Shown one piece after another: positions 48,821 to 52,744 of a stretch of DNA of 64,000 nt. Origin of the DNA: Bacteroidaceae bacterium (GTDB lineage Bacteria > Bacteroidota > Bacteroidia > Bacteroidales > Bacteroidaceae); assembly GCA_024401275.1 (NCBI GenBank), contig JAKSLJ010000014.1:1-64000 (forward strand). Direction: 5' to 3'. The position numbers were made by a program, and so were the translations under genes. Positions within the stretch are counted from its first letter, which is position 1. The number at the start of each line of letters is the position of its first letter. The notes under the pieces are model-generated. The model saw only the letters and a program-made list of their open reading frames with translations, was not told where the DNA came from and ran no database searches.

Positions 48821-48932
48821 TTTCGCCTTCTTTTTTACTTTTTTTTACAAAAATTCCGCCTTTTCTTTGTCAATAGAAAAAATATTGGTATATTTGACGA
48901 CGAAAAGTGACATGGGACGGTTCTGTGTCACC

Positions 48933-49048
48933 GATAGAACACGCTGATTAATAGCACATTATCTCTTAACTGTGTAAACTGGTGTGTATTCTTTTTTTCA
49001 ATTTTATTCTTTTGTTTGTAAAATGTTTTCTAACTTTGCAGCCAAATG
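48933..49048 (+). repeat. Duplicated promoter cassette, copy A
   Basis: A block of about 108 bp that runs from gatagaac to the -7 element TAACTTTG (49031-49038), and on to the ATG at 49046, is repeated at 50737-50852. The ATG is at the same offset (113) in both. The rest of the gap 48821-48932 has GGGACGGTTCTGTGTCACC at 48914, resembling the GGGGAC repeats at 51831 and 52430. Confidence 0.85.
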
Positions 49049-50089
49049 AAAGCTCTTCATACATATAATACAAGCAAAGCCAACTTCACCTTCTGCTACT
49101 ACGACAAGGATCATCTCGGCAACGTTCGTCAGGTGACGGAGTTGGACGGCAGCCGTGGCGGCAATGTGATACAGAGGAACAACTACTATCCTTTCGGCGC
49201 GGAGTTCTGCGATAATACAGCAAAAAGCTCTGTGCAATCACGCAAGTACAATGGCAAGGAGTTTGACCGTATGCACGGTCTTAACACCTACGACTACGGA
49301 GCTCGCCAGTATAACCCAGTTACAGCAAGGTGGGATAGGGTTGATCCGCTGGCACATGAATATTATAGCATCAGTCCGTATGTGTATTGTATGAATAATC
49401 CTGTGAGGTTTGTGGATCCGGATGGTCGCAGAATAAAAGGTCAAACCAGAAATGACGCGGAACAAGTCGTTGAGGATTTAAGAGCTATATTTTCTGCTGA
49501 AGAGTTTAATAATTTCAGGAATCTCATAGTGCAATCAGGAAAAAAGCAAAGAGGAAAAACATTGGCAAAAATTAGTGATGATGCTTTCAAAGCTGCATTT
49601 GACAACGTGAAACTTTCTAAAGATCAGCAGGTATTGGCTAATATGGTTTTTAACACTATTAATTCTGATGATGTACACACAATTGAATATGCAGAAACTG
49701 GCGGTATAGTTTCTGAAGATGCTAAAAATGCTTTTAACCCCGTACCTGCGTTAAATAGCACAATTGAAACATATGGTGGTTTGCCAACTTTTTTAATAGA
49801 AAATGCAGGAGGTGGCGGACTCACAATGAAGACCTCTAATGGAACACACACTGTAGTTGTAAACTCATCATCACTACATCCAGTCGGTAGAGCTGTTACA
49901 ACAGGACATGAATTGTTTGGTCATGGTCGGTCTTTAGCATTAGGCAGGTTTAACTCACAACATGTTGATGCAATACAAACAGAAAACTTAATCCGTCGTG
50001 TAATGGGAATCACATCAATTAATGATGGGAGCAACCACGCAAACAGAGAATACATTTCTAATCCAACTTCATTACCAGAACACAGATGA
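49046..50089 (+). CDS. Short Rhs-core protein with metallopeptidase-like C-terminal toxin domain
   Basis: A 347-residue protein. Residues about 16-128 are the Rhs repeat-associated core: YYDKDHLGNVRQV, NYYPFGAEF, RKYNGKEFDRMHGLNTYDYGARQY, DRVDPLAHEYYSISPY and the ending NNPVRFVDPDGR. The following 220 residues are the variable tip and hold TTGHELFGHGRS (HExxxH) with a downstream ENLIRR, the pattern of zinc metallopeptidase toxins. The large N-terminal Rhs shell and a signal peptide are absent, yet a promoter and ATG of its own are present. It is a displaced or captured toxin tip; its stop overlaps the next gene (ATGA). Confidence 0.82.
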   Translation: MKALHTYNTSKANFTFCYYDKDHLGNVRQVTELDGSRGGNVIQRNNYYPFGAEFCDNTAKSSVQSRKYNGKEFDRMHGLNTYDYGARQYNPVTARWDRVDPLAHEYYSISPYVYCMNNPVRFVDPDGRRIKGQTRNDAEQVVEDLRAIFSAEEFNNFRNLIVQSGKKQRGKTLAKISDDAFKAAFDNVKLSKDQQVLANMVFNTINSDDVHTIEYAETGGIVSEDAKNAFNPVPALNSTIETYGGLPTFLIENAGGGGLTMKTSNGTHTVVVNSSSLHPVGRAVTTGHELFGHGRSLALGRFNSQHVDAIQTENLIRRVMGITSINDGSNHANREYISNPTSLPEHR

Positions 50090-50676
50090 AATACATATTA
50101 GCACTTATTGCCATGAATATTGCATTGATAAAAATAAATGCATCAACAATAGATTCCACTTTAGTAAAACAATACCAAAGAGGTCATGACGTTGTTAATG
50201 AAATAATTGAACAGGAAGGGTTAAAGGACAGCGTTGCAAACAACCCTTTTTGTGGTTTATTTTTTGAAAATTTGTGGGCAATTACAGTAAAAAAAGAGAA
50301 GTCATATACGCTATACTACGGAAATCAACTTGGTGGTAGGCAAATGGTACAGAAAGAAATAGCTGTATCCGATACTATTATGACTAATTTATTTTCGCTG
50401 GATCAAGATAAAATCGAAACATGCATCTATAAACCAACGAATTTCTATACTCCTGTCTATTGGTATCTACTCCTTACTGACTCTATGCATAACATAAAAT
50501 TTGAATGGGACGCATATTCCATGTGTAAGGATAAATATCATAGTTATATTCAACATGTTAACGATGACTTTTTTGTTTATTTATTTAACATTGTTTATAA
50601 AGACAAAAAGGACTCGTTGTTGGGAGGGGGCGCAGCCTCAGCAACCATGCCGCACAAGCGGCAAGAACAACGATGA
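50086..50676 (+). CDS. Putative immunity protein of the Rhs metallopeptidase toxin
   Basis: A 196-residue protein with an N-terminal signal-like segment (MKYILALIAMNIALIKINAS), so probably periplasmic. It starts 4 bp before the toxin stop. The mature part is unrecognised, with many aromatic and Lys residues. The final 17 or so residues (GGGAASATMPHKRQEQR) are encoded by a palindromic repeat (50632-50718), so the original C-terminus may have been replaced. The immunity role is inferred from position, overlap and low GC shared with the toxin tip. Confidence 0.6.
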   Translation: MKYILALIAMNIALIKINASTIDSTLVKQYQRGHDVVNEIIEQEGLKDSVANNPFCGLFFENLWAITVKKEKSYTLYYGNQLGGRQMVQKEIAVSDTIMTNLFSLDQDKIETCIYKPTNFYTPVYWYLLLTDSMHNIKFEWDAYSMCKDKYHSYIQHVNDDFFVYLFNIVYKDKKDSLLGGGAASATMPHKRQEQR

Positions 50677-50718
50677 TCTTTGCATGATATCCGCTTGCGG
50701 ATAGGTCGCTGGGGCTGC
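50632..50718. repeat. Inverted-repeat element at the end of the immunity gene
   Basis: GCAGCCTCAGCAACC (50632-50646) is complementary, with two differences, to GGTCGCTGGGGCTGC (50704-50718). Related pieces are at 28472-28490 and about 58917. Its left arm is inside the coding end of the gene at 50086. Confidence 0.6.
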
Positions 50719-50736
50719 TACTGAAGTGATTCTCTT

Positions 50737-50852
50737 GATAGAACACACTGATTAATCGCACATTATCTCTTAACTGTGTAAACTGGTGTATATTCTTTTT
50801 TTCATTTTTCTTCTTTTGTTTGTAAAATGTTTTCTAACTTTGCACCCGAATG
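50737..50852 (+). repeat. Duplicated promoter cassette, copy B
   Basis: Near-identical to 48933-49048, with TAACTTTG at 50835-50842 and an ATG at 50850. Here the ATG opens only an 18-codon frame ending at TGA, about 40 bp before the next gene. It seems the promoter and start of a second Rhs-tip gene whose body has been lost. Confidence 0.85.
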
Positions 50853-50939
50853 ATTACATTCCAACAACATAGAAAGCGACGGGTCACTTCATACCTGTCC
50901 GTATGATCCCTCAAATTAGAACAATAAATATTAATACAT

Positions 50940-51776
50940 ATGTGGACTTATATAGATAGTTTTTCATATAGAAATATCATTCATTTTTTTATTATTGTTT
51001 TGGTTGTACTAGTGAGCATTGGATGTGATAAGCATAATCAATATTATTCTGACGAGTTGACTATACAACTGGAGTCGCTGTTTGAACACAATTCCAACGA
51101 TTCGATATATCATGTTTTCCAGAATAATTTTGGAAATGAGGAATACTTCACTCTGACTAGTGGCTCTTTCTATAATAAACCATTTGTAGATGCGTACTGT
51201 TTTATTAATGGAAATCTTGTTACTTTTTGTTCTTGGACAGGTAAAGCTGACAAGACTATTGTGAATATTGATGATATGATACCATTTAGGGATACAATAA
51301 GTGGCTACTGTGAACAGGGTAGCTATAATATGATTGAAGAAAAAGAACGAGAAAATATTATAATGAAAAAGAAAGAAGATGGTGGGTTTGAAATTGTCAA
51401 CCACTATGACCAATCTGCAATTGTAATTGATTCTCTTCAAAAAACAATAAAAAATCCTGTTATTTGTAAAAAATTGTATGCATACATGAAAAATGTTCTT
51501 GCCAACGTATATTACATATATTGTTACAAGAAAGACGAGAATAATTATTTGCAATTTGGAGCATCTGCCTTTTATGATCCCAAACAAACTATCGGATACT
51601 TCTTTTGCAATGGCATTTTGGTGGTTGTTTATTCAAACAACAACGATGTTGGATTTGACGAATTGAGTTTCTTGAACATGCGGGAAGTTAAGAAATATAG
51701 ATGTAGAATTGCTTATTATAAAGAATCCTCTCAATTCGTCATTCCTGTTGAAGATGAGGAAGAATTTGAGTTTTAA
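50940..51776 (+). CDS. Lipoprotein, orphan immunity-like
   Basis: A 278-residue protein. A basic/aromatic start and hydrophobic helix end in a lipobox (SIGC, Cys at about residue 30), so it is probably a lipoprotein. The mature part is AT-rich coded, full of Asn, Lys and Tyr, with no known family. It lies behind promoter copy B and before a GGGGAC repeat. Low GC, location after an Rhs toxin pair and absence of a cognate toxin suggest an orphan immunity gene, by context only. Confidence 0.65.
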   Translation: MWTYIDSFSYRNIIHFFIIVLVVLVSIGCDKHNQYYSDELTIQLESLFEHNSNDSIYHVFQNNFGNEEYFTLTSGSFYNKPFVDAYCFINGNLVTFCSWTGKADKTIVNIDDMIPFRDTISGYCEQGSYNMIEEKERENIIMKKKEDGGFEIVNHYDQSAIVIDSLQKTIKNPVICKKLYAYMKNVLANVYYIYCYKKDENNYLQFGASAFYDPKQTIGYFFCNGILVVVYSNNNDVGFDELSFLNMREVKKYRCRIAYYKESSQFVIPVEDEEEFEF

Positions 51777-51830: not shown

Positions 51831-51873
51831 GGGGACAGGTCGCTGTACCAACAGGTTCTACCCCATAATCCAA
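51831..51873. repeat. GGGGACAGG repeat, copy 1
   Basis: A 43-bp unit (ggggacaggtcgctgtacca... to ...ataatccaa) that recurs at 52430-52471 with one missing base. Each copy follows one orphan gene and precedes the next. Confidence 0.8.
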
Positions 51874-51962
51874 TGTGAAGGAGAACCGTCCCTTGTCACC
51901 ATACCTGCAACCCTGTTCAATAATTTACGTATCAACTACCCAAAGTACAAGTATATAAAAAG

Positions 51963-52391
51963 ATGAAAACAATCATCAAGAATTTCTTGCTAGGAAATAT
52001 GCTTTGCCTTGCAGCTCTAATATTGCTTAACCAATACCGCTTGTTTATAGATGAACGCAATGATTTTTTGGATGAATATGCATTTATAGGCATCTTTACA
52101 TTATTTGCAGGAGTGGTTCTCTCTACTAAAGATCAAAAATTAAAGAAGATGACACTATCATTATACATTATACTATGTGTGTGGATTGTAACCGTCTGTT
52201 TCCTGTTGGAAGGAACTATGCATTATAGGATTGTAGGTGTATTATTTATACCTTTATGGGGCATAATTAATATCTGGAGTTCTATCAAATACATGAAAAT
52301 GTCTGCGATGGAGAAATGCAAAACATCATATATATTTAGAGGATTGTTACTTTTTATAATGAGTGCCTTCTTTTATACACTATTAAAATAG
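51963..52391 (+). CDS. Small multi-pass membrane protein, orphan immunity-like
   Basis: A 142-residue protein with four hydrophobic helices, at about residues 8-24, 40-56, 66-84 and 120-138 with another weak one near 88-105. No family recognised. It is flanked on both sides by the GGGGAC repeat (51831 and 52430) and shares the low GC of the cassette region. Multi-pass proteins of this size are frequent immunity proteins against membrane-acting toxins, but no toxin is next to it. Confidence 0.65.
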   Translation: MKTIIKNFLLGNMLCLAALILLNQYRLFIDERNDFLDEYAFIGIFTLFAGVVLSTKDQKLKKMTLSLYIILCVWIVTVCFLLEGTMHYRIVGVLFIPLWGIINIWSSIKYMKMSAMEKCKTSYIFRGLLLFIMSAFFYTLLK

Positions 52392-52429: not shown

Positions 52430-52471
52430 GGGGACAGTCGCTGTACCAACAGGTTCTACCCCATAATCCAA
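52430..52471. repeat. GGGGACAG repeat, copy 2
   Basis: Matches 51831-51873 over 42 bp with a one-base indel. The following 52472-52740 stretch holds no credible gene; ggataggttccgtgaccct at 52596 resembles ggacagattccatgaccct at 54040. Confidence 0.8.
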
Positions 52472-52744
52472 CATGAACAAAATGACAACTTTAACACATA
52501 GGAGCATCGTCCGTGATGGCGTTTTCGGCAAGGCATACCAAACTGCAGTGCCAAACATTACCGTTGCCACTGGCTGCACGAGGGAGCTGGATCACAGGGA
52601 TAGGTTCCGTGACCCTCTGTCCAAATCTCCTCAGCACCGAGAAGACAATATCGGCAATATGAAAACGAATGGCATGTTCTGCGAGAAATAATCACAGAAA
52701 TGTGTGGTTTTAAAGTACTGAAAAATCAACTATTATAGAGAACA

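Follow-up and report, generated by a model that had tools for sequence, protein, structure and literature searches.

Detached Rhs and CDI tips are commonly regarded as a silent reserve. Whether such a tip can carry its own promoter and start codon is the question raised by the locus analysed here, in which a promoter-like sequence ending at an ATG occurs twice around a short Rhs gene. The window, that is the whole 64,000-nt stretch of DNA analysed, corresponds to positions 1-64000 of contig C6, in a genome of 3.2 Mb and 71 contigs. A preliminary description of the locus had proposed that each cassette carried its own promoter and start, and that the second copy of the promoter is what remains of another, displaced toxin tip.

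The repeated block and its promoter-like features

A repeat search of the window identified two direct, gapless copies of a 117-nt block with 94% identity (110/117) and a spacing of 1804 nt, confirming the duplication and extending it slightly beyond the 108 bp first given. The aligned region starts at GATAGAACAC and ends with the ATG plus one base. As originally noted, both copies retain TAACTTTG and an ATG at an offset of 113 nt from the block start (49046 in copy A and 50850 in copy B), only 7 nt past the -7 box. Full copies of the block occur in the genome at these two sites only, which rules out a chance repeat; the next-best match in the same genome covers 47 bp at 89% identity (C4:67115). 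The elements concerned are as follows.

48866 to 48896, forward strand: promoter-like TTTG-N19-TATATTTG upstream of copy A (pattern match), from which the Rhs gene could alternatively be transcribed with a leader of about 145 nt
48933 to 49049, forward strand: copy A, promoter-like, ending at the ATG (117-nt direct repeat, 94%)
49031 to 49038, forward strand: -7 box TAACTTTG of copy A, predicted transcript start at about 49043
50737 to 50853, forward strand: copy B of the block (117-nt direct repeat, 94%)
50835 to 50842, forward strand: -7 box TAACTTTG of copy B, predicted transcript start at about 50847, leader to the gene at 50940 about 93 nt

Both transcript starts were predicted from the reported position of the -7 box, -12 to -5 relative to the start (PMC9723704, as excerpted). 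The -7 element of the Bacteroidetes housekeeping promoter, TAnnTTTG, is present in both copies as TAACTTTG. The block is not matched by TTTGN{18,21}TANNTTTG, which includes a TTTG at about -33, and the nearest TTTG sits 16 nt from the -7 box, compared with the usual distance of about 19; in another member of the phylum no -33 motif was identified, according to the available text of PMC7366714. The predicted leaders differ between copies, at about 3 nt to the Rhs ATG behind copy A and about 93 nt to the 50940 gene behind copy B. Leaders shorter than 10 nt account for only about 3.7% in Bacteroides thetaiotaomicron (PMC7366714, same text). The block is presumably transcribed, and the ATG of copy A is presumably used as a start.

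The short leader of copy A directs attention to the promoter-like sequence at 48866-48896, a better promoter match than the block, from which the Rhs gene could be driven with the block lying incidentally within its leader. This sequence matches TTTG-N19-TATATTTG exactly and would provide a leader of normal length (about 145 nt, against about 3 nt from the block). However, the TTTGN{18,21}TANNTTTG pattern, which matched the window five times, is expected 1.26 times per window by chance, as estimated from shuffling, and copy B has no such match before it. While the copy A gene may be driven by the upstream promoter, or by both, we consider it improbable that the block has no part in its expression.

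A search of 397 other same-genus genomes for sequences related to the block gave four partial matches with E of 1e-6 or lower, in three genomes (G096 twice, G292 and G157), and together with the C4 site these make five matches outside the window, all of them partial. No Rhs or immunity match was found in the 3-kb loci around any of the five. On C4, the gene behind the block-like stretch encodes 131 aa and starts farther on than the ATG position of the block, so that an ATG immediately behind the -7 box is not conserved as a start; the block relatives stand before non-Rhs genes with starts further down, and the ATG is not kept as a gene start. The idea that the block is an Rhs-specific element was therefore rejected. 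That description had also named wide occurrence of the block away from Rhs genes as the observation that would count against it; the matches do lie away from Rhs, but they are partial and not widespread. With Rhs absent from all five other loci, the block appears to be an ordinary promoter type of the lineage.

An operator-like sequence, GTGTGTATTYTTTT, was considered as the mark of a regulon and dismissed: in the whole genome it occurs just twice, in copy A and at C4:67126, and copy B is one base off. In G096 the block-like promoter occurs twice (L026 and L029) with about 60 nt of common sequence behind it, before unrelated genes. The same genome has the closest amylase relative found (68%). 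A search for an empty site was uninformative, none of the window's genes being present behind the amylase of G096 or those of three other relatives.

Two copies with different flanks, and the two block-like sequences of G096, could also be explained by a small mobile or repeated (MITE-like) element that was inserted twice and acts as a promoter by happenstance. We regard this as very improbable, since 3.2 Mb hold only two full copies, no inverted repeat was found within the block (minimum search length 25), and no shared flanking duplication was seen in the alignment of the copies.

The units behind the two copies

The genes and repeats surrounding the two copies are listed here in order of position.

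48907 to 48931, forward strand: REP-like imperfect palindrome adjoining copy A, forming an inverted pair with 51875-51899
49046 to 50089, forward strand: gene for a stand-alone Rhs protein of 347 aa, with core and HExxGH tip and without the long Rhs N-terminus (TIGR03696, G183 relative, alignment)
50086 to 50676, forward strand: immunity-like gene, 196 aa, starting inside the Rhs stop codon; a 25% relative lies directly behind a related tip in G183
50627 to 50721, forward strand: REP/MITE-like stretch before copy B, overlapping the 3′ end of the immunity-like gene
50940 to 51776, forward strand: orphan immunity gene candidate, encoding a 278-aa lipoprotein
51875 to 51899, reverse strand: REP-like sequence, inverted relative to 48907-48931, one of 15 related sites
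51963 to 52391, forward strand: 142-aa membrane-protein-like ORF between two direct repeats, possibly a further orphan immunity gene (unproven)
52533 to 52589, forward strand: remnant of an Rhs pre-core region inside the ORF at 52473-52691, matching Rhs proteins of other genomes

The 347-aa protein encoded behind copy A contains an Rhs core at residues 47-127 (profile TIGR03696, E 7e-18). Homology to longer Rhs proteins begins approximately at its start codon, which identifies the gene as a stand-alone cassette, and the long YD-repeat shell and delivery part of a full Rhs protein are absent. A relative in G183 is 56% identical over residues 41-347 and is directly followed by a relative of the 196-aa protein (25%, E 5e-11). 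This shared gene order fits a toxin-immunity pair, and a variable tip followed by its own immunity gene is the arrangement of an orphan-type module, to which the pair would seem to belong. G183 was the only one of 298 other same-genus genomes with a relative of the 196-aa gene. The tip, which is presumably toxic, was considered as a possible zinc metallopeptidase of the HExxH type with a third ligand. It gave no match to Pfam or PDB by sequence; HExxGH is present in 6/6 aligned tip rows, but these rows had been chosen by that pattern, and a pattern search of genome contigs for tip relatives yielded 27 matches of which none was confirmed. By eye, both versions of the 196-aa protein (window and G183) have an apparent N-terminal signal sequence; none was evident in the stand-alone Rhs protein. 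The last residues of the 196-aa protein look foreign and are overlapped by the REP/MITE-like stretch, which has one relative in the genome (73%, C36:24403-24501).

A stand-alone Rhs core/tip gene thus follows copy A directly, but its start is poorly placed and the upstream promoter match could drive it. The term "displaced" is doubtful, as the 71-kb contig has no Rhs-core match other than the one behind copy A and no parental full-length rhs was found 5′ of the cassette. Rhs-core matches in this genome number three, on C6 (the window), C1 and C4, and the sole frame of more than 1,000 aa is on C4.

Behind copy B, the ATG leads into a frame of 18 codons only, as had been observed; an intact gene for a 278-aa protein with a lipobox-like start (by eye), beginning 90 nt past this ATG, had been overlooked. 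Relatives of the 278-aa protein are present in 6 of the 298 other genomes and lie directly behind an Rhs tip in three of these six. The relative in G124 directly follows an Rhs core/tip gene with which its ORF overlaps by 14 nt, that in G120 follows such a gene at a distance of 3 nt, and that in G223 overlaps by 4 nt with a 112-aa tip piece aligning to the G124 Rhs protein over 111 aa at 50% identity (E 4e-37). The only Rhs sequences near the relative in G046 are fragments, and no Rhs was found in the stretches fetched around the relatives in G210 and G204. No tip remnant could be recognised between copy B and 50940. Since the relatives directly follow Rhs tips in half of the genomes that have them, the 278-aa gene is best read as an immunity gene minus its toxin, with copy B being the promoter that a former cassette has left, in support of the original view of copy B as the leftover of another cassette.

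Further decay is visible downstream. In alignments of 18-19 aa, the Rhs remnant at 52533-52589 reaches 89% identity with Rhs proteins from other genomes (best E about 3e-6), which shows that the array once contained more cassettes. A 41-nt direct repeat (95%; 51839-51879 and 52437-52477) brackets the 142-aa ORF, for which no relatives were found in 298 other genomes. REP-like sequences flank the array in inverted orientation. Sites of this GTGACA-GGGACGGTTCT type number 15 in the genome at up to two mismatches, with none for the reversed control pattern; a second inverted pair lies at C4:77563-77648, just behind the full-length Rhs gene and the gene following it, and 4 of the 15 sites are at two of the three Rhs loci.

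Stand-alone Rhs cassettes in the genus

The frequency of promoter-like sequences before other Rhs cassettes was surveyed among the 103 of 299 genomes (own included) with Rhs-core matches. The 84 better-scoring matches, from 39 genomes, were taken as 59 stretches, a sample that favours Rhs genes close to the query. Together with the window these held 91 core matches, of which 70 had a closed 5′ end and 68 at least 150 nt before the start of Rhs homology; removal of near-identical upstream sequences left 66 cassettes, including that of the window. A TAnnTTTG box was present within 150 nt upstream of the Rhs homology start in 20 of the 66 and absent from the other 46, compared with a mean of 6.5 in shuffled sequences (sd 2.4, highest 15 in 300 shuffles), 7 on the opposite strand and 2 inside the core. 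The enrichment was concentrated in strongly truncated cassettes (14/35; shuffle mean 3.5, highest 10; opposite strand 3) and not in the remainder (6/31; opposite strand 4). The 20 include the window, L079 and L085, as well as one doubtful case (L110 in G061), whose box corresponds, in a longer copy, to apparent Rhs coding sequence, and independent cases number fewer than 20.

A pair of cassettes in each of two genomes, G269 (L079 and L085) and G218 (L095 and L101), has the start and the core in common, together with about 80 nt of preceding non-Rhs DNA that contains a -7 box. Similarity is lost at the core end and in the flanks, and the tips differ. The promoter-like sequences of these pairs are unrelated to the block of the window. 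Because the promoter fusion is common to both members, the divergence of each pair came after the fusion, and the dN/dS values of the shared coding parts, 0.12 in G269 (20.0 synonymous and 11.0 non-synonymous changes) and 0.17 in G218 (22.8 and 17.2), fit with proteins that were translated after it. In G269 the cassettes are about as similar to a full-length Rhs gene (88%) as to each other (90%), so that gene conversion from full-length genes could mimic purifying selection; the G218 pair is 89% identical to each other versus 70-77% to two other cores of that genome. One of the G269 cassettes (L085), on contig C54, precedes rather than follows a full-length Rhs gene (L086), at a distance of about 4 kb.

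Two other candidates were set aside. In the 13.7-kb array of G061 (L110), TAAATTTG appears to be part of the Rhs coding sequence of the longer copy, excluding it as a second example of a repeated promoter; the array has six copies of a 188-nt Rhs-core stretch with many small lipoprotein or membrane ORFs between them. Shared upstream DNA in G250 was not counted because one of the three cassettes has residual Rhs homology there; the upstream sequences of the other two read like Rhs coding sequence by eye.

These data bear on the view that the block is an ordinary promoter serving the immunity genes only, with the Rhs frame not appreciably translated, its ATG accidental, and transcription reaching the 50086 gene. 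The nearly leaderless Rhs start is consistent with this, as are the block relatives that precede non-Rhs genes with starts further down and the position of copy B before an immunity gene; in Escherichia coli EC93, moreover, there is transcription of the orphan region and its immunity protein is produced, while no orphan toxin was detected (PMC3150448, as excerpted). The Rhs frame of copy A, however, has stayed open for 347 codons and overlaps the immunity start, and the low dN/dS values of the shared-promoter cassettes in other genomes also argue against it. We judge this explanation unlikely.

The proposal that each cassette carried its own promoter and start gains from the stand-alone cassettes with a promoter-like segment and a start in other genomes, twice as pairs, but not in the form in which the block itself would be an Rhs element. 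In a broader version, the form in which Rhs tips are disseminated and maintained across the genus would be a complete unit with a promoter and start codon of its own, a truncated core, a tip and an immunity gene; promoter and core would act as a homology handle for new tips, the protein would be made and under purifying selection, and tip loss would leave a promoter-driven orphan immunity gene. We put this forward tentatively, as a possibility with the odds against it.

Proposed origin and relation to known systems

We favour, with modest confidence, an explanation in which Rhs toxin-immunity cassettes once formed an array here that has since decayed; two of them would have carried the same ordinary lineage promoter block, and the second would have been reduced to promoter and orphan immunity gene. 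A promoter block of this type would have become joined to an Rhs fragment; most likely, a cassette consisting of promoter, start, core, tip and immunity gene was acquired next to one that had the same promoter, and the older of the two lost its toxin part. Cassette 1 would be intact, with block A, start codon, truncated core, tip and overlapping immunity gene, while loss of core and tip from cassette 2 would have placed block B directly before the orphan immunity gene, with a leader of about 93 nt. What both units retain is the promoter-like block and an immunity gene. Given that both immunity proteins seem to be exported, whereas a signal sequence is not apparent in the Rhs protein, both units may have been kept mainly to make (exported) immunity proteins. 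This suggests that detached toxin units can keep a switch of their own that is able to serve the antidote after toxin loss. If so, the same promoter would turn a cassette into standing immunity once the toxin is lost, which would be an uncomplicated way for an orphan immunity gene to arise from a toxin cassette; and if many detached tips carry a fused promoter and start, they would be expressed genes.

That orphan tips can be transcribed on their own, as the preliminary description had concluded for this locus, is already known from Salmonella Typhimurium, where a promoter located within conserved rhs sequence drives transcription of both the main and the orphan tips (PMC7043789). What appears to be new is the fusion of non-Rhs promoters to truncated Rhs cores, with duplicated units in three genomes, and an orphan immunity gene candidate left under such a promoter. 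A title-level literature search (Rhs orphans with their own promoter; Rhs in Prevotella) gave no report of promoter-fused Rhs cassettes in the phylum.

The following comparisons refer to the available excerpts of the cited reports. The cassettes resemble the Salmonella rhs orphans in having a promoter-bearing orphan tip with an immunity gene behind it; the Salmonella promoter, which precedes main and orphan tips, lies inside the rhs coding sequence with CTG as the start, whereas here a non-Rhs block is joined to a truncated core and an ATG, and the toxin is gone behind one copy of the block (PMC7043789). Like orphan cdiA-CT/cdiI modules, they are detached tips followed by immunity genes and kept in arrays; such CDI modules are generally without translation start signals, although the immunity gene can be expressed, and the EC93 module is co-transcribed from upstream, whereas each unit here has a promoter-like block and an ATG (PMC3150448). 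Stand-alone toxin-immunity cassettes near Rhs-type toxins are likewise known from polymorphic toxin cassettes and polyimmunity loci, for which the excerpt describes no promoter for each cassette (PMC3482391). Finally, as in the recombinase-associated rAID arrays of Bacteroidales, an orphan immunity gene appears to be kept without its toxin, but here it lies in a decayed Rhs array behind what is probably a cassette promoter (PMC12247911).
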